Shown here piece after piece: positions 12,884 to 23,510 of a stretch of 64,000 nt of DNA. Source of the stretch: Gemmatimonadota bacterium. GTDB lineage: Bacteria; Gemmatimonadota; Gemmatimonadetes; Gemmatimonadales; GWC2-71-9. Under the pieces are notes generated by a model that ran no database searches, had not been told where the DNA came from, and was given only the letters and a program-made list of their open reading frames with translations. The stretch lies in NCBI GenBank assembly GCA_009692115.1, contig SHZU01000010.1, positions 1-64,000 of the forward strand. Direction: 5' to 3'. The stretch's first letter is position 1. Every line of letters starts with the position of its first letter. The position numbers and the translations under genes are program-made.

Positions 12884-13132
12884 TTACTGCGAGAGCCGCT
12901 TTGGTTCACTCGATGTCGGCGGTTGGGCGGGGGCATCGAGTTGGCGCGACGGGGCTGCCCGGTCATCGGTGCCGCTGGTGACGGCGTCCGACGTGTCGGA
13001 GAGACTCCGCTTGAACTCCCGAATTCCCTTGCCAAGCGACTGCCCGATTTCCGGGAGCCGTTTGGCGCCGAAGACCAACAAGGCAATCAGGCCGAGAACG
13101 AGGATTTCGGTAAAGCCGATATTCGAGAACAT
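12884..13132 (-). CDS. tatA: Sec-independent protein translocase TatA/E
   Basis: A small membrane protein (82 residues from the ATG at 13132, with GGAG upstream). The TatA pattern is clear: short periplasmic N-terminus MFSNIG, one membrane helix TEILVLGLIALLVFGAKRLPEIG with the FGxxRLPE hinge, then an amphipathic helix QSLGKGIREFKRSLSD and a polar tail. With TatC it forms the pore that exports folded proteins with twin-arginine signals. TatC lies about 2 kb upstream on the same strand. No TatB was seen, so this protein may serve both roles. Confidence 0.93.
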   Translation of the reverse strand: MFSNIGFTEILVLGLIALLVFGAKRLPEIGQSLGKGIREFKRSLSDTSDAVTSGTDDRAAPSRQLDAPAQPPTSSEPKRLSQ

Positions 13133-13145
13133 GGGGAGACTCCTG

Positions 13146-13418
13146 CTAGAAAAGCGACCGGGCAACCAAGTAGGCTATCAGCACACCAAGCACACTAAGC
13201 AGCGATACCTCAACCCCGACAGGGCCGAGAGTGAAGTCTAGCACGAGGAGCTTCATGGTGACAGGTCCGAACTCACCCCGGGCGGCTGTGGTAAAGAACG
13301 CCCGGGCCGGACTTTCCGGTAGAATCCGGCTCAGGAATGCCTGGAGGAAACCGCCTAACAGAAAGCCAGTCACCAAGATGGCGACGTAGTAGCGGGGCCG
13401 ACGGGGTCCGGATGTCAT
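13146..13418 (-). CDS. DUF4321 small membrane protein
   Basis: A 90-residue protein with two membrane segments: YYVAILVTGFLLGGFLQAFL near the N-terminus and VSLLSVLGVLIAYLVA at the C-terminus. Between them lies GPVTMKLLVLDFTLGPVGVEV. This is the DUF4321 pattern (GxLLGGFLG, FTLG, NLLSVLG), a family of unknown function. It sits between the prenyl synthase fusion (3-base gap) and tatA (13-base gap) on the same strand, so it is probably co-transcribed with them. Confidence 0.75.
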   Translation of the reverse strand: MTSGPRRPRYYVAILVTGFLLGGFLQAFLSRILPESPARAFFTTAARGEFGPVTMKLLVLDFTLGPVGVEVSLLSVLGVLIAYLVARSLF

Positions 13419-13421
13419 GGC

Positions 13422-15182
13422 CTAATTTCGGCGTTCCATGACGAACGTCACGGCGGCTCGAAGGAGCTCGCGATCGGGGCCCGGCGCCAGCCATTCCAGT
13501 TCCCGGGCCGCCTCATCCGCCAGGCGCTGGGCCCGGCCCCGGGCATACTCGAGTCCGCCGGCGGTCCGAACGTGCTCCACCACCCCCGCCACTTGTTCGG
13601 CAGTGGGATCCGGAGCGGCCATGAGGGCGTTGACATCGCTCCGTTGCGGACCGGTCAGCCTGGGCAACGCGTGAATCAGCGGCAAGGTCACCTTGTGCTC
13701 CCTGAGATCGTGGCCAGTGGGCTTTCCGGTCACCGTTTCGACTTCGGTAAAGTCAAGCAGGTCATCGACGATCTGAAAGGCCATCCCGAGCGCATTTCCG
13801 AACCTGGCCATGGCCGCGCGCACCTCTTGAGACGCCCGAAGGGCGCCGCACTCGCACGCCCCCGAGAGGAGGGAGGCCGTTTTAGCCCGAATCAGGAGAT
13901 CGTAGCTCTCTTCGCTGAAGGTCAGCGGGTCGTGGGCCAGCAGCTGCCGCATCTCCCCGATGGTCATCTCGTTGGTGACCCGGCCGAGCACTTCGAGCGG
14001 TTTGAGGTCGGCGAGGTTGACCAACTCGATCACGGCCCGCGAATAGAGATAATCGCCCATGATCACCGACACCTGGTGACTGAAGAGCGCGTTGATCGTC
14101 GGCATCCCGCGGCGGAGGACGGAGTGATCGACGGAGTCGTCGTGCACCAAGGTGGCGAGGTGAATCAGCTCGACAACGGCGGCCAACCGGACCACCCGGT
14201 CATCGAGCGAGCCGGTGGCCCGATTGACGAGGAACAGCAGGGTCGGGCGGAGCATCTTGCCCTGCATCCGCAGGAGATGCGAATTGACGTCCCCAATCAG
14301 CGCAAAGTCGGCCTCGATCGCCCGGCCGATCTGGGTCCGGACCCCCTCGAGATTGTCGTGCAGGTCGGCCTGCAGATCGGCGAGCGACACCACGGTCGCG
14401 CTCGAGGTCACGGAGCCCCCGTTCAGGAGTTCCAGGCCATCGACCGGCCCGGTCGGCTCTGCGGGCCGATCGTAGCTCGCCCCAAGATCGAGAAAGACCA
14501 GTCCGTCGCCACCGGCCCCCGGCCGATACGGCGACGGCAGGCTGGCACCCGGATTGGCCGCCGAGCCGTTGGCGTCGGACTCGAGCGTCTCGGTCCGCTC
14601 CCGGCTGGCCTGGGACCCGGCGGCGCTGCCCCGCGACTCGAGCTCCACGGCTAGGCGTTCAAACTGCTCCCCGGCCTCTTCGTTCCGGGACGCCGCGCGG
14701 AGCAGCTCCACCAACATCGGACCGATATCAGGATTCCCGACGAACTGCTCGGCAAACGAATTGACCGCCTTCAGGGCCTCCTCGCGGTGGTGAAGCGCAT
14801 CCATCCGCTCGAGGTACTCCACCAGATTGCGCTTGGCGTCGCTGACAAAATTCTTCCGGGCATTGAGCTGGGCGAGGCGGAGGTAGGTGCTGGTCCGGCC
14901 GGGGTCCGCTCGGAGGATCTTACTGCACAGCGCAATCGCGTTGTTGAAAAACCCCTGCTCGGTGTAGAGATCGGAGGCCTGCTCGTAGGCGCGGATCGCG
15001 GCGCCGGAGTCGCCACCGCGCATTTCGAGATCGCCAATCCGGTTGTACGGCGACGGGTCGGGCACCCCTTCGCCCGACTCTTCGAACTCCCGGAGCGCTT
15101 TCTTGTACACGTCAATGGCAGGACGCCACTGGCCGCTTTGCTCGTACTTGCGCGCTGACTCTTTGAGCTTGTCGAGGTTCAT
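13422..15182 (-). CDS. TPR domain fused to polyprenyl diphosphate synthase
   Basis: A 586-residue protein starting at the ATG at 15182 (MNLDKLKESARKYEQSGQWR). Residues 1-180 are tetratricopeptide-like helical repeats. Residues 185-260 are a low-complexity linker. Residues 265-585 are a complete trans-isoprenyl diphosphate synthase: GKMLRP (substrate site), first Asp-rich motif DDSVD (348-352), LRRGMPT, and second Asp-rich motif DDLLD followed by GKPTGHDLREHKVTLPL. The first motif has the short DDxxD spacing of long-chain, octaprenyl-type enzymes. It should make the quinone side chain or a related C30-C50 polyprenyl chain. The fused TPR part is unusual for this enzyme. No frameshift or stop separates the halves. 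Confidence 0.88.
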   Translation of the reverse strand: MNLDKLKESARKYEQSGQWRPAIDVYKKALREFEESGEGVPDPSPYNRIGDLEMRGGDSGAAIRAYEQASDLYTEQGFFNNAIALCSKILRADPGRTSTYLRLAQLNARKNFVSDAKRNLVEYLERMDALHHREEALKAVNSFAEQFVGNPDIGPMLVELLRAASRNEEAGEQFERLAVELESRGSAAGSQASRERTETLESDANGSAANPGASLPSPYRPGAGGDGLVFLDLGASYDRPAEPTGPVDGLELLNGGSVTSSATVVSLADLQADLHDNLEGVRTQIGRAIEADFALIGDVNSHLLRMQGKMLRPTLLFLVNRATGSLDDRVVRLAAVVELIHLATLVHDDSVDHSVLRRGMPTINALFSHQVSVIMGDYLYSRAVIELVNLADLKPLEVLGRVTNEMTIGEMRQLLAHDPLTFSEESYDLLIRAKTASLLSGACECGALRASQEVRAAMARFGNALGMAFQIVDDLLDFTEVETVTGKPTGHDLREHKVTLPLIHALPRLTGPQRSDVNALMAAPDPTAEQVAGVVEHVRTAGGLEYARGRAQRLADEAARELEWLAPGPDRELLRAAVTFVMERRN

Positions 15183-15357
15183 CCGACTCGCGAGTAAAGG
15201 GGGCCGAGTGGCACGAATCGCACTAGGCGCGTCAACATCTTGTAGCGACGTAAGATAGGCCCGCTGGAACGGGCCAGGCAAGCCGGGTCATGGGGGCCGC
15301 CGCCCGGTCGGGACGGCCTGCAGGGTCCGGGCCAGCGGCTCCCCGGGCCGATCGGAC

Positions 15358-18300
15358 CTACCGCCGGTCGGATTGGATGGTGTTTTGGCGGTAATCGAAC
15401 TTGATGTCCGGCAAATCGATCAGGGTCACCAGGAACGAGAACTGGAAGTTGCCATTCGGGCTTCGGAGGAATGAAAAGGTCGCTCGCCAGTCGTGGAGGT
15501 CGCGGGTCAGATTGAGTTGTTGAGACTCAAATTTCTTTTTGGTCACGTCATACTGGGTGTTCCAGCTGACCTGCCAGAACTGGGTCGGGGCAAAGCTGGT
15601 ATTGAGCGAGAGGTTGCTTCGGTTCGGGGCCCGGAGGGCGGCCGTCTGGGCTACGGGCCGGTTCCGGGCGATGGTCAAATTCACATTGGCGTTGAAGCCG
15701 CGCTGGCCCCGGGTGTAGGTCTGGTTGGAGGTGAAGCCGGTGCCCCGCCGGAGGTCGTCGACCCCGCCAAACGGAGACTGGCCCGGCAGGTTTGGGGCCC
15801 GGGCCGGCTGGGCCGTTTCCTTGGTCGCCGGTTCCGTGGTCAGGCCGAGCAATCGTCCGATCGACTTGAAGGTGCCGTCGGTCAGCGAAAAACTCGCCGT
15901 CACCCCGGACAGGAACGGGTTGAATCGGGCGGTGTCGCTGTCGAACTGGCCGATGAAGAGGTCGTGGGAAAGCGACAGGTTGAGCCCGGGCACCAGATCG
16001 CTGAGGAGACTGTTGGTCAGTGAGCCGCTGCCCCAGCCGGTCCGGCCGGGCTGTTTGGCCTTTTCGAAGTCATAGGACATTCCGCTGGTGCTGATGCTCA
16101 GGATCCGAATCTTCTTGACCGCGGCATCGGTCGTGTCACCGGCCGGGCGCTTGGACTTGCCCTCGAAATTCTGACTCAGGGTCAGGTTGAGATTCTGGCT
16201 CGGAATGCTCTCCAACACCAGCGGCTGGCCGACCGGGGTGATCGCCCGGGCAAACTCGAGCGGAACCGCGGCGGCCGGGCTATACGAGTAATTGAGCGAC
16301 GGCTGAATGGTATGGCGAATCTTGGCGAGGGGGCCGATCCCGGGAAAGAACCCGTAGAACGTGGGCGACACCGACACCCCGAACTGCAGCCGCTTGCCTT
16401 GCCGGACGAACTGTCCGTCGGTCCGTTCGTTTCGAACGGCAAAGGGCCCCGACGTAATGTTGGTGATGCCCACGTTCGGCGTGACCTTCCACGAGGTCCG
16501 GAACACGATCGGCAAGTTGATCCCGGTTTGCCAGTCGAATTCACTGCCGAATCCCCCACCCCGGACCCGCCGGACCGTGATCGAGTCGGTGGGATCAGGG
16601 GTGTCGTCGTTCGGCAGTTTGACGACCTCTTCCCGAAGGCCGGCGGAGTCGGCATCAATCAAGCTCACCGCGTTCTGCCATTGGAATCCGCCGATTCGAA
16701 GCGGCGTGTTCATAGTAAAACGGCTGACCCGACTCCCGCCCGTCACCTTGAGCGTGTCGACCTGGCCGCCGATACCCCGGGGCACCAGCACCGACGGCAG
16801 CGGCTGCCGGAACCTCACGTCGCGATTGAAATTGAGGTCCGGCGACCAGGTGACGTTGGTCCCAAAATCAAGCGGCTTGGGCGACACGGAGAGCGACGGC
16901 TCGGTCCGCGAACCGCTGCCGTCGGTCACGTTCTGGCTCCGGGTCCAACCAACCGCGACGTTGCCCCACTTGAACTGACGGTTCAAATTGGAGGAGCTTC
17001 GAATCTGCTGGGTGGTGAGGCGCGGGTCGATCGAGTTCCGGCGAATGATCGACGAATTGGTCGAGTAATCGAGGCTGACGTTCAGTTTGGTGGTGATGTT
17101 GAACGACTGACTGTGGTTCCAGACGATCCGGGTATTGGAGTTCCCCGACCCCGACCCGATTTCACTGCTCTTCGAAAAGCTGACGGCCCCCCGCGCAAAC
17201 TTGTCGATCCACCGGTACTGCCCCTCGAACCCCAACTCGATATACCGGTTCGAAAACCAATCGAACCGGCCGAGCAGATCGACATAGTCGTTGGGAGCCC
17301 AATAGTACCCGATGTTCCGGACGGTTCGATTGTAGGCGCGGCTCGGCCGGACGATGTCGTTAAAGCCAAATTCGGGGATCAAGATCCCCGAACGCCGACC
17401 CCGCTTGGTATCCTGAAAGAGAAACGGAATCCAGGCGATCGGGACATCCCGGATGTACAGAACCGCGGGCCGGGCCACCATGACCGACCCGTTGACCCAC
17501 TTGAGCTCTTTGGCCGCAAAGTGGTAGTGCGAATCCGGCAAGTCACAACTGGTGATCTCCTGGGCCCGGGCGTAGATCCGGCTGGTGGACGAATCCATCG
17601 CGATATTGCCGCTGATGATCCAGTTGGCTCCCTGCTGCGGAAAGGTCGTCCGGCCATCCTGAACCAGCCCCCGCTCCGCACAGGTGTTGAACTGGACCTG
17701 ACGGCCGACCACCACGGTACCCTCCTGAAACAGGTGGGGCTCCCCCTCCGCGTCGAACCGGCAATCGCCCGCCCGATAGTCGATGTGGCGAGCTTCGAGC
17801 GTGGATCCCGCCCGCTCGGTCATGGCATTGCCGTCCAGTTTCACGACCCGGTCTATAGTTTGAACCCGGGCCGTATCCGACCGGTATCGGGTCACATCAT
17901 ACCCCTCGAGTTCGAGCAGATCATCGACAATCGAGTCCGGGGCGGCGAAGCTCAGCTTCGGGGCGGTGGGAATGCCGAGGCGGCGGGCGCTCGCGGTATC
18001 AAGCGGGGTTGGTGTCCGAGTGCCGGTGTCGGCCGGATTCTGGCGGGGACTCTGCTGGGCCACCGGTCGGGGCGGCGGGATCGGGCGCTGGGCGTCGAGC
18101 CGGGTTGGAAACCCAAACGCCACCAGCGCCATCAACGCGGCGGCGGCCGCCCGGATCCGCCGTCGGTGGACGATCCACGCCCCCGCAAACCCAACCTCGT
18201 ACAGGATCAACAACGGAATCGACATCATCATCATCGAGAAGATGTCGGTACCTGGCGAGAGAATCGCTCCGCCCGCAAAAGCCAGGACCGCGGCAAACCG

Positions 18301-18885
18301 GCGGAACCGGTGCAGCATGGCCGGGGTCACGACCCCGAGAACCGCCAGCATGATGATGACCAGCGGCAGTTCGGCCGAAATCCCCATGGCCAGCACCACC
18401 TGAAGCACGAATGAAAAATACTCGCGATAGGTGATGAGCATATCGAACGTGCCGGGCTGGAACCCGAGCAGGACGCGAAGGGCCTCGGGTACGATGAAGA
18501 TGAAGCTCAGCACCGCACCGCTGACGAACAAAAGGAACCCGGCGAAGAGCGCGGGGACGATCGCCCGCTTTTCCCGGTCGTAGAGCGCCGGGGCCAAGAA
18601 CGCCCAGAGCTGCCAGATGAGGACCGGCGACGCCAACACCAGCCCCACGATGAGCCCGAGCTGCAACACGATCATGAACGGCTCGGTCGGGCTATGAATG
18701 ACGAGATGCCGGCCCTCGAGCAGCGGCGTGATCGGGGCTTGCAGGATGTCGACGAGGCGGAACTGGCTGACAATCCAGATCCCGGCCCCGACCGCCGCCG
18801 CCAGGGCAATCACGGCCTTGACGAGTCGACTTCGAAGTTCCTCGAGGTGGTCGAGGAACGGCATTTCACCGCTGGACCGAGCCAT
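15358..18885 (-). CDS. TatC-LptD fusion: Tat translocase subunit joined to LPS-assembly outer-membrane protein
   Basis: One uninterrupted frame of 1175 residues. Residues 1-242 are a full TatC: MPFLDHLEELRSRL, six membrane helices, the conserved SPTEPF loop, and FVSGAVLSFIFIVPEAL. The chain then runs through HRRRIR and a hydrophobic stretch (about 246-260) ending TRLDAQ, which reads as a signal peptide with a signal peptidase I site (after about residue 265). From about 345 it is LptD-like: an OstA region (VVKLDGNAMTERAGS), then a long beta-barrel part rich in Tyr, Trp and Asn with a C-terminal strand region. TatC ends in the cytoplasm, so the inner signal would send the LptD part out. An ATG at 18132 inside the joint could also start LptD alone. 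It follows cpoB by 13 bases. Confidence 0.85.
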   Translation of the reverse strand: MARSSGEMPFLDHLEELRSRLVKAVIALAAAVGAGIWIVSQFRLVDILQAPITPLLEGRHLVIHSPTEPFMIVLQLGLIVGLVLASPVLIWQLWAFLAPALYDREKRAIVPALFAGFLLFVSGAVLSFIFIVPEALRVLLGFQPGTFDMLITYREYFSFVLQVVLAMGISAELPLVIIMLAVLGVVTPAMLHRFRRFAAVLAFAGGAILSPGTDIFSMMMMSIPLLILYEVGFAGAWIVHRRRIRAAAAALMALVAFGFPTRLDAQRPIPPPRPVAQQSPRQNPADTGTRTPTPLDTASARRLGIPTAPKLSFAAPDSIVDDLLELEGYDVTRYRSDTARVQTIDRVVKLDGNAMTERAGSTLEARHIDYRAGDCRFDAEGEPHLFQEGTVVVGRQVQFNTCAERGLVQDGRTTFPQQGANWIISGNIAMDSSTSRIYARAQEITSCDLPDSHYHFAAKELKWVNGSVMVARPAVLYIRDVPIAWIPFLFQDTKRGRRSGILIPEFGFNDIVRPSRAYNRTVRNIGYYWAPNDYVDLLGRFDWFSNRYIELGFEGQYRWIDKFARGAVSFSKSSEIGSGSGNSNTRIVWNHSQSFNITTKLNVSLDYSTNSSIIRRNSIDPRLTTQQIRSSSNLNRQFKWGNVAVGWTRSQNVTDGSGSRTEPSLSVSPKPLDFGTNVTWSPDLNFNRDVRFRQPLPSVLVPRGIGGQVDTLKVTGGSRVSRFTMNTPLRIGGFQWQNAVSLIDADSAGLREEVVKLPNDDTPDPTDSITVRRVRGGGFGSEFDWQTGINLPIVFRTSWKVTPNVGITNITSGPFAVRNERTDGQFVRQGKRLQFGVSVSPTFYGFFPGIGPLAKIRHTIQPSLNYSYSPAAAVPLEFARAITPVGQPLVLESIPSQNLNLTLSQNFEGKSKRPAGDTTDAAVKKIRILSISTSGMSYDFEKAKQPGRTGWGSGSLTNSLLSDLVPGLNLSLSHDLFIGQFDSDTARFNPFLSGVTASFSLTDGTFKSIGRLLGLTTEPATKETAQPARAPNLPGQSPFGGVDDLRRGTGFTSNQTYTRGQRGFNANVNLTIARNRPVAQTAALRAPNRSNLSLNTSFAPTQFWQVSWNTQYDVTKKKFESQQLNLTRDLHDWRATFSFLRSPNGNFQFSFLVTLIDLPDIKFDYRQNTIQSDRR

Positions 18886-18898
18886 CACCCACTCAACC

Positions 18899-19684
18899 TT
18901 AAGGTTTCAGCGCCTCGAGCCGGGTCTTAGCCAAGTCGGCATCTTCGGACCTCGGATACTCGGCGACCACCCGCTGGTAGGCGGCCCGGGCTCGGACCGG
19001 ATATTTGAGGCTCTGTTCGTACAGGCGGCCGACCTTGTACAGCGCGGCCGGCGCCCGAGCCGACTGCGGGTACTTCGCGGTCACCTCGGTAAACCGGGCA
19101 ATCGCGGTATCTGGCGAGGCGGTCTCGAACGTTTCGGCCACGAAATAGAGCGCGTCAACGGCGTTGGGATGCGTGGGATACTGCTGGAGGAAATCGAGAA
19201 ACGCCCGCCGAGCCGTTGCGACGCTTCCGCGCCGGTATTGCTGGAGAGCCGCGTTATACATCTGCTCGGCCGACGCCGCCGGGACCGTCCCCGGACCGCG
19301 GACCGCGGTGTCCGGCACGGCTGGCGCGACCGGCGTGCCAATCTGGGCCTCGGCTCGAGCATCGAGTTGGCCCCGGAGCTGGCTCAGGTTGCGCTGACTT
19401 TGACCAACCACCTCTTGCACCGCCAACAACTGCCTCATCATGTCGGTGACGTCGTTGGTGGTCTTCGCGTCCATGACCCGGAGCGCCTGGCGGGTCGCCG
19501 TCAATGAGTCGATGACCTGCTGCTGGAGCCGGATGAGCCGGGCCAATTCGGCGGCCCGGACGGATTCGTGACGGGCCGTTTCGGCCCGCAGCACCATGAC
19601 CTGGGTCTCGACCCGGCGGACATTCCCTTTCGTCGCGCAGCCAGCCAGCGACGCCAGGGACGCCGCCAAGACCCACCGGCGCAT
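18899..19684 (-). CDS. cpoB: CpoB/YbgF, Tol-Pal coordinator of septal peptidoglycan synthesis
   Basis: A 261-residue lipoprotein: signal peptide with lipobox LAGC (Cys16), a coiled-coil N-terminal region (about 25-110, heptads such as RAAELARLIRLQQQVIDSL), a linker, then three TPR-like repeats (AEQMYNAALQQYRRGSVATA, AVDALYFVAETFE, APAALYKVGRLYE). This is the YbgF/CpoB architecture. Start is the ATG at 19684 overlapping the pal stop (TGATG); a GTG one codon earlier is the alternative. It lies at the end of the Tol-Pal genes as expected. The E. coli protein is soluble, while this one appears lipid-anchored. Confidence 0.88.
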   Translation of the reverse strand: MRRWVLAASLASLAGCATKGNVRRVETQVMVLRAETARHESVRAAELARLIRLQQQVIDSLTATRQALRVMDAKTTNDVTDMMRQLLAVQEVVGQSQRNLSQLRGQLDARAEAQIGTPVAPAVPDTAVRGPGTVPAASAEQMYNAALQQYRRGSVATARRAFLDFLQQYPTHPNAVDALYFVAETFETASPDTAIARFTEVTAKYPQSARAPAALYKVGRLYEQSLKYPVRARAAYQRVVAEYPRSEDADLAKTRLEALKP

Positions 19685-20244
19685 CACCGCGGTCTCACCA
19701 AACGGCCGGCCCCGGCCACGAACTCAAACTCATCCCGACGGTTCTTAGCCCAGGCAGCTTCACTCGACGCTGGGTCGGTCGGCCGTTCCTCGCCGAACGA
19801 CAGCGTCTCGATCCGGTTGCCGTCGATCCCCTTGGCCTCGAGATACCGCTTGGCGCTGGTGGCCCGCCGATTCCCCAGGACCAGGTTGTACTCATCGGAA
19901 CCGCGCTCATCGCCGTGTCCCGAGATCTTGATCCGAAGAGCCGGATTGGCCAGCATGATGGCCGCTTTGAGATCGAGCACCGGCTGCCCGTCCGCCCGAA
20001 TCGCGTCCTGGTCCAGGTCGAAGTAAATCGATTCCTGCATCGCCCGGGTCAGGTCGGCGGTGATCGCCGCCGCATCTGCGGACCCGGGATTGGTCGGAGT
20101 GGTTGCCCCACCGCTGGTACCGCCCGGTGTTCCGGTCCCCGGGGTGGTCGTCGTTCCGCCGGTCGGGGTCGGCACGGCTTCCGGTTGCTTCTTGCCGCAG
20201 GCCGACAACATCGCGAGTACAAGGATCATGGATCGAATACGCAT
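19684..20244 (-). CDS. pal: Peptidoglycan-associated lipoprotein Pal
   Basis: A 186-residue lipoprotein starting at the ATG at 20244, with AGGGAGA upstream. The lipobox is LSAC (Cys16). A Thr/Gly/Pro-rich linker (25-60) leads to an OmpA-like domain: IYFDLDQDAIR, then LRIKISGHGDERGSDEYNL, then RRATSAKRYLEAKGID. The Asp and Arg of the peptidoglycan-binding pocket (GHGDERGSDEYN) are present. It anchors the outer membrane to the wall and works with TolB, which is encoded 43 bases upstream. Confidence 0.95.
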   Translation of the reverse strand: MRIRSMILVLAMLSACGKKQPEAVPTPTGGTTTTPGTGTPGGTSGGATTPTNPGSADAAAITADLTRAMQESIYFDLDQDAIRADGQPVLDLKAAIMLANPALRIKISGHGDERGSDEYNLVLGNRRATSAKRYLEAKGIDGNRIETLSFGEERPTDPASSEAAWAKNRRDEFEFVAGAGRLVRPR

Positions 20245-20287
20245 GCGGTGGTTCTCCCTTTGAGGGGAAGTCGTTTCAGGCCTTGCT

Positions 20288-21583
20288 TCAGCGGCCGCGA
20301 CCGATGGGCCGTGACCACGACGGTAATCGAGCGGAACCGGGTGTCGCGAGTTGCCGGACCCGGCCGGTTTCCAAATCCAGCACATGGAGCTGCCCGCGAC
20401 CGGTCCGGTTCGACACGAACACCACGTGACGGCCATCGGGCGCGAAGCTCGGATCCTCATTCCGCCCCGACGAGGTCCTCGCTTTGAGCTGTCGAGCCGA
20501 GACGTCGAAGGTGACGATCTGCGGACTGCCCCCCGACTCGCGGTGAAACACGATCATGGTGCCGTCGGGCGCCCAATCGGGGGCGAACGAACTCCCCGAC
20601 GCCCCATAATCGAACGGAATCATCAACTCCTGATCCGTCCCGTCGGCCGCCATGGCATAGATCTGCGGCGACCCGGCGCGGTTGCTGACATACGCGATCC
20701 GCCGACCGTCGGGAGAATAGGCAGGCGAGAGGTTTTCTGCAAACCGCCCCGCGGTCAATCGCTCGACGCAACAGAGGTCGGCGACATTGACCGCATGGAG
20801 GTTGGCCGCTTGCTCCGTCAGCCGCGAAAACACCAGCTTCCGTCCGTCGGGCGAGAAGGAGGGGGTGATGTTCTGGCCGACGTTGGTCGTCGGCACCACC
20901 TGCCGGGTGCCCGTGGCCACCGACTGGACGATGATGGCCCCGGCCCCTTCCCCGCCAAGCTGCATGTAGGCGAACCGGCTCCCGTCCGGGGACCACACCG
21001 GCGAAATCGCCAGCAGGTTGGCCGGGCTCATCGGCACCACACCATGACCGTCGGAATCGACCCGGTAGATCCGCTTGTCGCCGTTGTTGAGGAAGAGCAT
21101 TCGAGTGGCCGCTACCCCGGGCTTCCCGGTCACCCACCGAACGATCTCGTCGGACACCCGGTGAACCGCCATCCGGGCCTCACCCTGGCCTGACGGATCG
21201 AGCGGCACGGCCATCTCCTGCCGAACGAACTCCGCGGCCAGGTCATGGAGACGGACCGCCACGGTGCCGTTGACGCTCACGATCTCGACCGCATAGCTCG
21301 CCCGGAGGGTCCGATAGAGCGGATAGTTAATCGGCGCCCCGGTCGCCGGACCGACCGGCCCGCCGGTGGCGGGGAGCGCGATGACTTCAAATCGGTCGCT
21401 GAAATCGAGGTCCCGAGCCACAATGCCACGAATCGAGTCGAGCGCGACGACCGTCGGCATCACGACCAGCCCGGGCCGAACCCCCGGATCGTACACACCC
21501 TGAACCCGAACCGTGTCCTGGGCCGTCGCCGACCTCACCGTCAAAGTTCCGACCAAGAGAATAGCTGCGCGCCAACGCCTCAT
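20288..21583 (-). CDS. tolB: TolB, periplasmic beta-propeller of the Tol-Pal system
   Basis: A 431-residue exported protein. The ATG at 21583 overlaps the upstream TonB/TolA-like gene (ATGA) and opens a signal peptide MRRWRAAILLVGTLTVRSATAQ. The N-terminal TolB domain runs to about 165. The rest is a six-bladed propeller seen as repeats of the form xxSPDGxxxxF/Y (PVWSPDGSRFAY, PSFSPDGRKLVF, PAYSPDGRRIAY, PDWAPDGTMIVF, PSFAPDGRHVVF). It binds Pal and links it to the inner-membrane TolQRA motor. Gene order supports the role. Confidence 0.94.
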   Translation of the reverse strand: MRRWRAAILLVGTLTVRSATAQDTVRVQGVYDPGVRPGLVVMPTVVALDSIRGIVARDLDFSDRFEVIALPATGGPVGPATGAPINYPLYRTLRASYAVEIVSVNGTVAVRLHDLAAEFVRQEMAVPLDPSGQGEARMAVHRVSDEIVRWVTGKPGVAATRMLFLNNGDKRIYRVDSDGHGVVPMSPANLLAISPVWSPDGSRFAYMQLGGEGAGAIIVQSVATGTRQVVPTTNVGQNITPSFSPDGRKLVFSRLTEQAANLHAVNVADLCCVERLTAGRFAENLSPAYSPDGRRIAYVSNRAGSPQIYAMAADGTDQELMIPFDYGASGSSFAPDWAPDGTMIVFHRESGGSPQIVTFDVSARQLKARTSSGRNEDPSFAPDGRHVVFVSNRTGRGQLHVLDLETGRVRQLATPGSARLPSWSRPIGRGR

Positions 21584-22272
21584 GGCCGATTCCTCGGTCG
21601 GAAGAGAAACGCCACCTGCAGGATGTCCGCCGGCCAGACCTTCGGCAACGGACCAAAGGCAAGATCCTCGGACGCCTTCTCGATGGCACCCTGCGCTTCG
21701 AGATCGAAGGAATAGCTGCGCGACGTCCGAAGCACTCTGATACCTCGCACCGAACCGTCCCGCATGATGGTAAAGGTCACTTCTGCCTCTAGCGCGCTCG
21801 AACCGACCGGCCTGGCCCACCGCCGCAAGATCTCATTAGTCAGGTTCCGAAGGTAGGTCGGATCCGGAAACTGCCGCCCATCAGTGACCCGGACGTCCGC
21901 TACGTCGGTTCCGGCTCCCGGCGTTTCGCCGGGGGCCAGCGGAGTCGAGGTTTTGGGAGGTGGCGCCGGCCCAGTCTTGGGATCCACCTTGGTCGGCGGT
22001 TTGGCCTTCACCGGTACCGGCTTCGCGGCCGGTTTTGGTTTCGGCGCGACTTTCGGGGGGGCCGGTGGGGGGGCCGGGACCGGCGCCGCCGCCACGGTCG
22101 CGGCCCGTGGGGCCGCCACCAACTCGACGTTATAAACGATCGGCTGGACCCGGGTGGCCCCGCGCGATGCCGCCAGCACAGCCAGCACCAGAGCGCCATG
22201 CACCAGGAGGGTCCCGGTGGCTCCGGCCACCACCCCCTGACGCGGCATCGTCGGCACCGACCGGAGTCTCAT
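21580..22272 (-). CDS. tolA: TonB/TolA-like energy transducer
   Basis: A 230-residue protein starting at the ATG at 22272 (ATGA overlap with the ExbD-type gene). One N-terminal membrane helix (about 14-36, VAGATGTLLVHGALVLAVLA) is followed by a Pro/Ala/Lys-rich stretch (about 55-115, PKPKPAAKPVPVKAKPP) that can span the periplasm. The globular C-terminal TonB-type domain follows (LEAEVTFTIMRDGSVRGI). By position between tolR and tolB it takes the TolA place, but the C-terminal domain looks like TonB. The role is therefore inferred from context. Confidence 0.8.
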   Translation of the reverse strand: MRLRSVPTMPRQGVVAGATGTLLVHGALVLAVLAASRGATRVQPIVYNVELVAAPRAATVAAAPVPAPPPAPPKVAPKPKPAAKPVPVKAKPPTKVDPKTGPAPPPKTSTPLAPGETPGAGTDVADVRVTDGRQFPDPTYLRNLTNEILRRWARPVGSSALEAEVTFTIMRDGSVRGIRVLRTSRSYSFDLEAQGAIEKASEDLAFGPLPKVWPADILQVAFLFRPRNRP

Positions 22273-22706
22273 CGCGAGACGTCTTCCTCTTCGGTGACCA
22301 GCCCCGCCGAGGTGATCCCCGCCTCGTGCAGCGCCGCGATGACCCGGACCACGTTCCCGTACGGCGTGGCCCGGTCGCCCCGGACATACACGCTCGAGGC
22401 CCGGCGCTGATCCATGAGCCGGCGAACCGTGGCGCGGAGCTCCGCCTGGGTAACCGGAATGTCGTCGACGAAGATTTTCCCCCGCCGATCGACGCTGACC
22501 ACGATGCCGTCCTTGGACGCCAGGGGCGTGGCCTTGGCCTGGGGCAGCTCGACATCGATGCCCCCCTGCATGATCGGGGCGGTGATCATGAAGATGATCA
22601 AGAGGACCAACGCCACATCCACCAGCGGGGTAATGTTGACATCGGCGTTGACCGCCGGCGACCGCCGCCGGCCGATGCCAGCGCCCCCGACGCCTCCGCC
22701 CGCCAT
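22269..22706 (-). CDS. tolR: TolR/ExbD-type proton-channel subunit
   Basis: A 145-residue protein in TAATG overlap with the ExbB-type gene; an ATG at 22715 would add three residues. After a short basic N-terminus come NADVNITPLVDVALVLLIIFM, with the essential membrane Asp in PLVDVALVL, and then a small periplasmic domain (IVVSVDRRGKIFVDD). With TolQ it turns proton flow into motion of the TolA-type protein. The family is clear; TolR rather than ExbD is chosen because tolB and pal follow. Confidence 0.9.
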   Translation of the reverse strand: MAGGGVGGAGIGRRRSPAVNADVNITPLVDVALVLLIIFMITAPIMQGGIDVELPQAKATPLASKDGIVVSVDRRGKIFVDDIPVTQAELRATVRRLMDQRRASSVYVRGDRATPYGNVVRVIAALHEAGITSAGLVTEEEDVSR

Positions 22707-23422
22707 TAGAGCCACCCCTCCTTCGCCATCCAGCCCACCAGGCCGTTGGCGAACCCCTCGAGTTCGCCCTCAAGGACCGCCGTCTGGGAGGCGAAGTAGT
22801 TGTACGCCACCAGCGCCGGAATTGCCGCCGCAATGCCGGCCACCGTCGTGATCAACGCCTCAGCGATGCCGGGGGCCACCGCCGCAATGTTGCCGGCGCC
22901 TTTCTGCCCCATGCCCAAGAAGGCGTCCATGACGCCGAGGACCGTCCCCAGGAGGCCCAACAGAGGGCTCACGCTGCCGACCGTGGCAAGCGACGGAATC
23001 AACTTGGCCGCCGCGTCCCGTTCGGCGCCGACTTCTTTGCCCAGGACCATCTTCAGGGCCTCAAGCTGGGTTACGGTCAGACTGACCCGTTCGACCGACC
23101 CGTCTTTGAAGACTCCCGGGGCCAGGTCGCTGTAGAAGCTCATGGCTTCCCGGAACACCCGCCCGATCGGTGACGGCGGCAGCTTGAGCACCACCCGGTG
23201 CGCATCCTGAAGCCGCGGAGCGCCTTCCAAAGCCCGGAGTAGACGGGTGTTTTGGGATCTGATCTTTCGAAGTTGCCATGCCTTGACGCCGATGACGAAC
23301 CATGAGACGAGCGAGAAGAGCGCCGTCACCGCGAGCACGACGATCGTCGCTGGAGTCGCAAGCTCGAGGAGCTGCCAGATCGAGGTTGGGATCAGGGTCG
23401 ACGCCTGGAGGGCCAAGATCAT
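22706..23422 (-). CDS. tolQ: TolQ/ExbB-type proton-channel subunit
   Basis: A 238-residue membrane protein starting at the ATG at 23422 with GGAGT upstream. Three membrane segments are visible: one near the N-terminus (TIVVLAVTALFSLVSWFVIG) and two in the conserved C-terminal part (SLATVGSVSPLLGLLGTVLG and AEALITTVAGIAAAIPALV), with the family motif GLLGTVLGVMDAF. It is the first gene of the tolQ-tolR-tolA-tolB-pal-cpoB block. No ybgC thioesterase precedes it, unlike in E. coli. Confidence 0.92.
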   Translation of the reverse strand: MILALQASTLIPTSIWQLLELATPATIVVLAVTALFSLVSWFVIGVKAWQLRKIRSQNTRLLRALEGAPRLQDAHRVVLKLPPSPIGRVFREAMSFYSDLAPGVFKDGSVERVSLTVTQLEALKMVLGKEVGAERDAAAKLIPSLATVGSVSPLLGLLGTVLGVMDAFLGMGQKGAGNIAAVAPGIAEALITTVAGIAAAIPALVAYNYFASQTAVLEGELEGFANGLVGWMAKEGWL

Positions 23423-23510
23423 CCATACTCCTTCATGGGGTGAAAACGGTGCCATCGGCCGGGAGACGCCCGAACGACCGCTTTCGTGACAACCATGAAG
23501 ATAAAACGAC

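Follow-up and report, generated by a model that had tools for sequence, protein, structure and literature searches.

Can TatC, a subunit of the Tat translocase, and LptD, which together with LptE inserts LPS in the outer membrane, be made from a single reading frame, and if so, how would each of them reach its place? This question is raised by a locus on the minus strand of a 64,000-nucleotide stretch of Gemmatimonadota DNA (the whole stretch that was analysed, hereafter the window), in which the sequence-only reading had seen a TatC, an LptD-type protein and a joint resembling a signal peptide between them.

Domain content and surroundings of the tatC-lptD frame

The minus strand (18888..15358) holds an open frame of 1176 codons, which begins with a GTG at 18888 and runs without interruption to the stop at 15360-15358; the alternative start, an ATG at 18885, gives a protein of 1175 residues. 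No stop or frameshift lies between the two halves, as had been claimed, and the same holds in relatives. The gene is present in a single copy in the genome.

The TatC domain covers residues 1-239 (18169..18885) and has six helices. PF00902 (TatC) matched residues 12-224 above its cut-off with 198.5 bits and over its full model (1-208 of 208), and TIGR00945 (tatC) scored 186.1 against a cut-off of 132.7. For structural comparison, 60 fused relatives served to build an AlphaFold model of the whole protein, with a mean pLDDT of 79, and a Foldseek search with this model recovered the solved TatC structures 4b4a and 4hts with TMt of 0.80-0.81, E. coli TatBC being matched as well. The profile matches and the 4b4a fold match bear out the earlier description of a complete six-helix TatC at the N-terminus. 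In an alignment of 60 fused proteins, E15, E16, P51, E105 and D214 were each conserved in 90% or more, and we take them to be the counterparts of functional residues of E. coli TatC, among which are the N-terminal Glu motif, a loop Glu and a late Asp; from what is known of the family, the topology of this half is presumably N-in/C-in.

The LptD part extends to residue 1175 (15361..17892) and consists of an N-terminal beta-jellyroll and an outer-membrane beta-barrel, as judged from PF19838, the strands of the model and Foldseek. PF19838 (LptD_2) scored above its cut-off, the best stretch being residues 470-669 with 131.8 bits. The best 15 Foldseek matches were all LptD (8h1s, 4q35 and others, E about 2e-25 to 1e-18), with TMt of just 0.43-0.55 and an identity of 11-14%. 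The identity of the C-terminal part as LptD was therefore upheld by PF19838 and Foldseek, but not its start at about residue 345, the fold beginning at about 332. Between the two domains lies a linker rich in Pro, Ser and Thr (residues 267-331, 17893..18087), which is partly disordered. In the model, the chain was all-helical to residue 257, disordered from 257 to 293 (pLDDT below 50), and formed the jellyroll from about residue 332 and then the barrel. Residues 215-257 were drawn as one helix of falling confidence, with no separate seventh helix.

The gene lies in an envelope gene block on one strand (12884-23455, minus strand), in which TolQ-, TolR-, TonB/TolA-, TolB-, Pal- and YbgF/CpoB-like genes are followed by TatC-LptD, a polyprenyl synthetase, a DUF4321 gene and TatA. 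The last is a TatA/B-family gene (12884..13165, minus strand; PF02416, 65.8 bits). The polyprenyl synthetase frame (13422-15281, minus strand) carries PF00348 at residues 330-568 after a weak TPR-repeat region, which falls within about 300 residues, and is a possible second fusion in the same block. The genome also encodes one Peptidase_S26 match, LptF/LptG-type matches and LpxC; together with TatA and the single TatC-LptD copy, these count in favour of the precursor reading given below.

Anatomy of the joint

The joint (18168-18088, minus strand) reads HRRRIR, AAAAALMALVAFGF and PTRLDA followed by Q. The basic tail of TatC, HRRRIR (residues 240-245, 18151..18168), is the putative n-region, AAAAALMALVAFGF (residues 246-259, 18109..18150) is the hydrophobic h-region on the Kyte-Doolittle scale, and PTRLDA (residues 260-265, 18091..18108) is the c-region, with a signal peptidase I cut predicted after Ala265. 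Gln266 (18088..18090), at +1, would then be the new N-terminus of LptD.

We compared these features across 80 fused joints. The best 12-residue window of the h-region had a mean Kyte-Doolittle value of 2.43 here and of 1.9-3.1 across the set, and in 79 of the 80 the 20-residue stretch preceding the core contained at least three Lys or Arg. Position -1 was Ala, Gly or Ser in 78/80, position -3 was mostly Leu, Ala or Val (often Leu rather than Ala), and +1 was Gln in all 80, a count that is partly given by construction because our script chose as the site the first small residue followed by Gln, or the first Gln, after the core. As an independent check, a MAFFT alignment was used, in which Q266 was invariant (60/60) and was the sole invariant column between E230 and D317. 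The fused joints fell into 12 length classes, every one of them in frame, and in ten independent, non-overlapping close pairs the substitutions at the joint were distributed over codon positions 1, 2 and 3 as 29, 16 and 87. Both observations fit a constrained segment that is translated in this frame.

A Gln at +1 was also frequent in the ordinary signal peptides of this genome. With a heuristic detection in the window and the loci L210-L229 (464 kb), we observed it in 11 of 22 signal-peptide-like frames, compared to 2.4 expected, and with another filter in 13 of 31; in a second genome (G206, loci L230-L249), the same heuristic gave 4 of 8, with 0.8 expected. Many of the frames lacking this Gln resemble membrane or cytoplasmic proteins. 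A comparison with other phyla was left out of account because its loci had been chosen around LptD and were thereby biased, and so was an E. coli control of too small a size. The residue thus appears enriched in the genome's own signal peptides, which we count in favour of a cut at Q266. In Bacteroidetes, signal peptidase I exposes Gln at +1 under the so-called Q-rule (PMC5837995, PMC10653852), described as exclusive to that phylum (PMC10653852). The likeness lies in the Gln at +1; the differences are that our organisms are Gemmatimonadota and that the pattern is known here from sequence alone. A glutaminyl cyclase of the PF05096 type was not found in the genome.

Fused and separate forms among relatives

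A search for the joint in related genomes, which the sequence-only reading had proposed, recovered the same in-frame joint in two families. The frame read through in 79 of the 86 genomes of the same GTDB family with a readable joint, in 32 genera; these fused relatives are about 40-75% identical, and 12 of them run off their contig inside LptD, the joint itself being complete. Overall, the in-frame joint of the window was also present in 79 other aligned assemblies of the two families, plus two more. In the second family of the order, the fusion was found only in one sub-clade of three genomes (G054, G238 and G407), while the sister genomes G331 and G299 carry two separate genes. The fused sub-clade is nested within that family and therefore most simply represents a separate gain. 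The survey of TatC frames in the class covered 144 of 149 sampled genomes, and among these no TatC frame longer than about 450 residues was found outside the known fused families.

Seven genomes of the same family are split (G003, G007, G025, G101, G089, G009 and G087), with tatC and lptD of G009 on different contigs, and other families also hold separate tatC and lptD genes. In the split relatives, tatC and lptD usually share 4 nt at the stop of the one and the start of the other (ATGA or GTGA; 22 of the examined loci), and the LptD so encoded has its own start and then a signal peptide whose cleavage site is similar. The separate genes of other Gemmatimonadota thus share with the fusion the gene order, the products and an LptD signal peptide that is similar and likewise has Gln at +1, and differ from it in their own stop, their own start and, usually, the 4-nt overlap.

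Separate genes in relatives had been named beforehand as a possible objection to the fusion. Such genomes do exist, but in most of them the lptD start overlaps the tatC stop and the fused genomes have no such start; therefore, we read the fused and split forms as alternative states and not as evidence against the fusion, which has replaced the coupled start/stop overlap by read-through. Two split loci were peculiar. In the window's own genus, otherwise fused, G003 (locus L004) is split with an ATGA overlap, which may reflect either recent switching or a draft error. In G087 (locus L163), LptD lacks a good start and its frame is shifted against that of TatC at a G-rich repeat of the GGGGGC type; this may be a frameshift, due to a sequencing error or to a slippage site, rather than a true split. 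The split forms in G003 and G007 indicate that the fusion is not indispensable. On a tree of 116 rows, the fused/split label needed at least seven changes, six of them forced by well-supported branches; this was a quick LG+G4 tree, on which gains are not separable from losses. Such repeated switching is easiest to understand if both forms yield identical mature products.

Proposed processing of the precursor, rival readings and precedents

Taking these results together, we consider it probable that one TatC-LptD precursor is made and cut. The TatC part would be inserted first as a normal six-helix protein with a cytoplasmic C-terminus, and its basic tail HRRRIR would then supply the n-region for the internal signal peptide of LptD. 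The core (residues 246-259) would re-engage Sec and cross the membrane N-in/C-out, and signal peptidase I would cut after Ala265, between LDA and Q. A short seventh helix would remain on TatC, and LptD would be released into the periplasm with Gln266 at its N-terminus, for delivery to the outer membrane. The sequences themselves show the single frame and its conservation, the conserved signal-peptide anatomy, selection on this frame at the joint, the lack of a conserved internal start and the recurrent changes between fused and split forms; full-length translation, topology, cleavage and the fate of both products are what we infer. The comparative evidence supports the earlier interpretation, in which the joint is an internal signal peptide that ends in a site for signal peptidase: the tripartite anatomy recurs with the Gln in all 80 joints, a conserved internal start is lacking and the second fused clade is alike. 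Against the precursor, we note that AlphaFold draws no seventh helix, that Leu is frequent at -3 and that split forms occur in G003 and G007.

Two proteins could also arise from one frame if LptD were made mainly from a weak internal start, the open frame being incidental. Overlapping starts are in use among the split relatives, and the core in the window holds TTG, ATG and GTG codons, among them the in-frame ATG at which an internal start had been suspected (Met252, 18130..18132, minus strand). This ATG was rejected as the start of LptD: it sits inside the hydrophobic core, has no SD-like match upstream and is not conserved, and a signal peptide starting there, or at any other start within the core, would be without a basic n-region. 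Other internal starts in the joint were rejected as well, for want of an SD-like match, of conservation and of enrichment. In 59 of the 80 fused genomes there is no ATG, GTG or TTG between helix 6 and the core; start-like codons ahead of the core numbered 22, compared to 19.3 expected from the amino acids and the codon usage; an SD-like match (4 nt or longer) accompanied a start-like codon in 5 of the 80 joints only; and the congener G002 has no start-like codon in the joint. Moreover, TatC would still be left without its own stop. Leaky internal starts may occur in single fused genomes with GTG, TTG or ATG in the joint, but as the main source of LptD we regard internal initiation as improbable. 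An assembly or sequencing artefact that deleted a stop codon is hardly conceivable. Most of the genomes compared are drafts, and G087 has offset frames and no good LptD start; however, the in-frame joint occurs in 82 assemblies, with differing sequences and lengths and with the codon-position bias. Because the same joint recurs in other assemblies of two families, the comparative set rules out chance or assembly error for the family as a whole.

The protein might instead stay whole, with the 65-residue linker physically tying the Tat translocase of the inner membrane to the LPS translocon. The conserved frame would suit such a tether, and the extended linker together with the jellyroll could span the periplasm. 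Against this stand the conserved small residue and Gln at the joint, the repeated switching to separate genes and the linker itself, which is not special to the fusion because similar linkers are present in the split forms. We therefore rate tethering as very improbable. The best support from sequence for cutting over tethering comes from the conservation of the site and from the repeated switches between the fused gene and separate ones. Between the two lies slow or partial cleavage, in which a pool of whole TatC-LptD would tie Tat export or abundance to the assembly of the LPS translocon, in a regulatory or spatial manner. To this we likewise give a very low probability, and for the suggested functional link between Tat and LPS assembly we found no support beyond coupled synthesis.

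For the favoured reading, a precursor cut at the joint, there is a bacterial precedent. FbcH of Bradyrhizobium japonicum, which Thony-Meyer et al. are said to have described in 1989, is reportedly a precursor of cytochrome b and cytochrome c1 cut by signal peptidase. In both cases a polytopic protein of the inner membrane shares one frame with an exported one, an internal signal sequence lying between them, and TatC-LptD displays two features of this type: one frame without a separate second start, and a conserved n-region, h-region and motif for the predicted cleavage. In contrast, both products of FbcH belong to one inner-membrane complex, whereas TatC and LptD belong to unrelated machines of different membranes, and the joining of TatC to LptD occurs in two separate families. 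A more distant likeness is offered by the core-E1 junction of hepatitis C virus, where an internal signal peptide is cut by the host signal peptidase and, being cut at its end, stays on the upstream product (PMC5402940); the proteins are unrelated and the enzyme is the eukaryotic signal peptidase complex. Our literature search for a TatC-LptD fusion returned no relevant paper, in line with the sequence-only reading, which knew of no described TatC-LptD polyprotein. The pairing, its breadth and its recurrence thus appear undescribed, the principle of cutting being already known from FbcH.

If true, this would be a bacterial polyprotein uniting a subunit of the inner-membrane protein translocase with the outer-membrane LPS translocon, in a fusion that is conserved over 32 genera or more and recurs in another, separate clade. 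We would have here an example of gene neighbours with a 4-nt overlap turning into a gene for a fused precursor, with the reverse step probable too, as well as of the recruitment of the basic tail of an upstream membrane protein as the n-region of a downstream signal. It is also a caution for annotation pipelines, in which all 1175 residues may receive the name of one half only.
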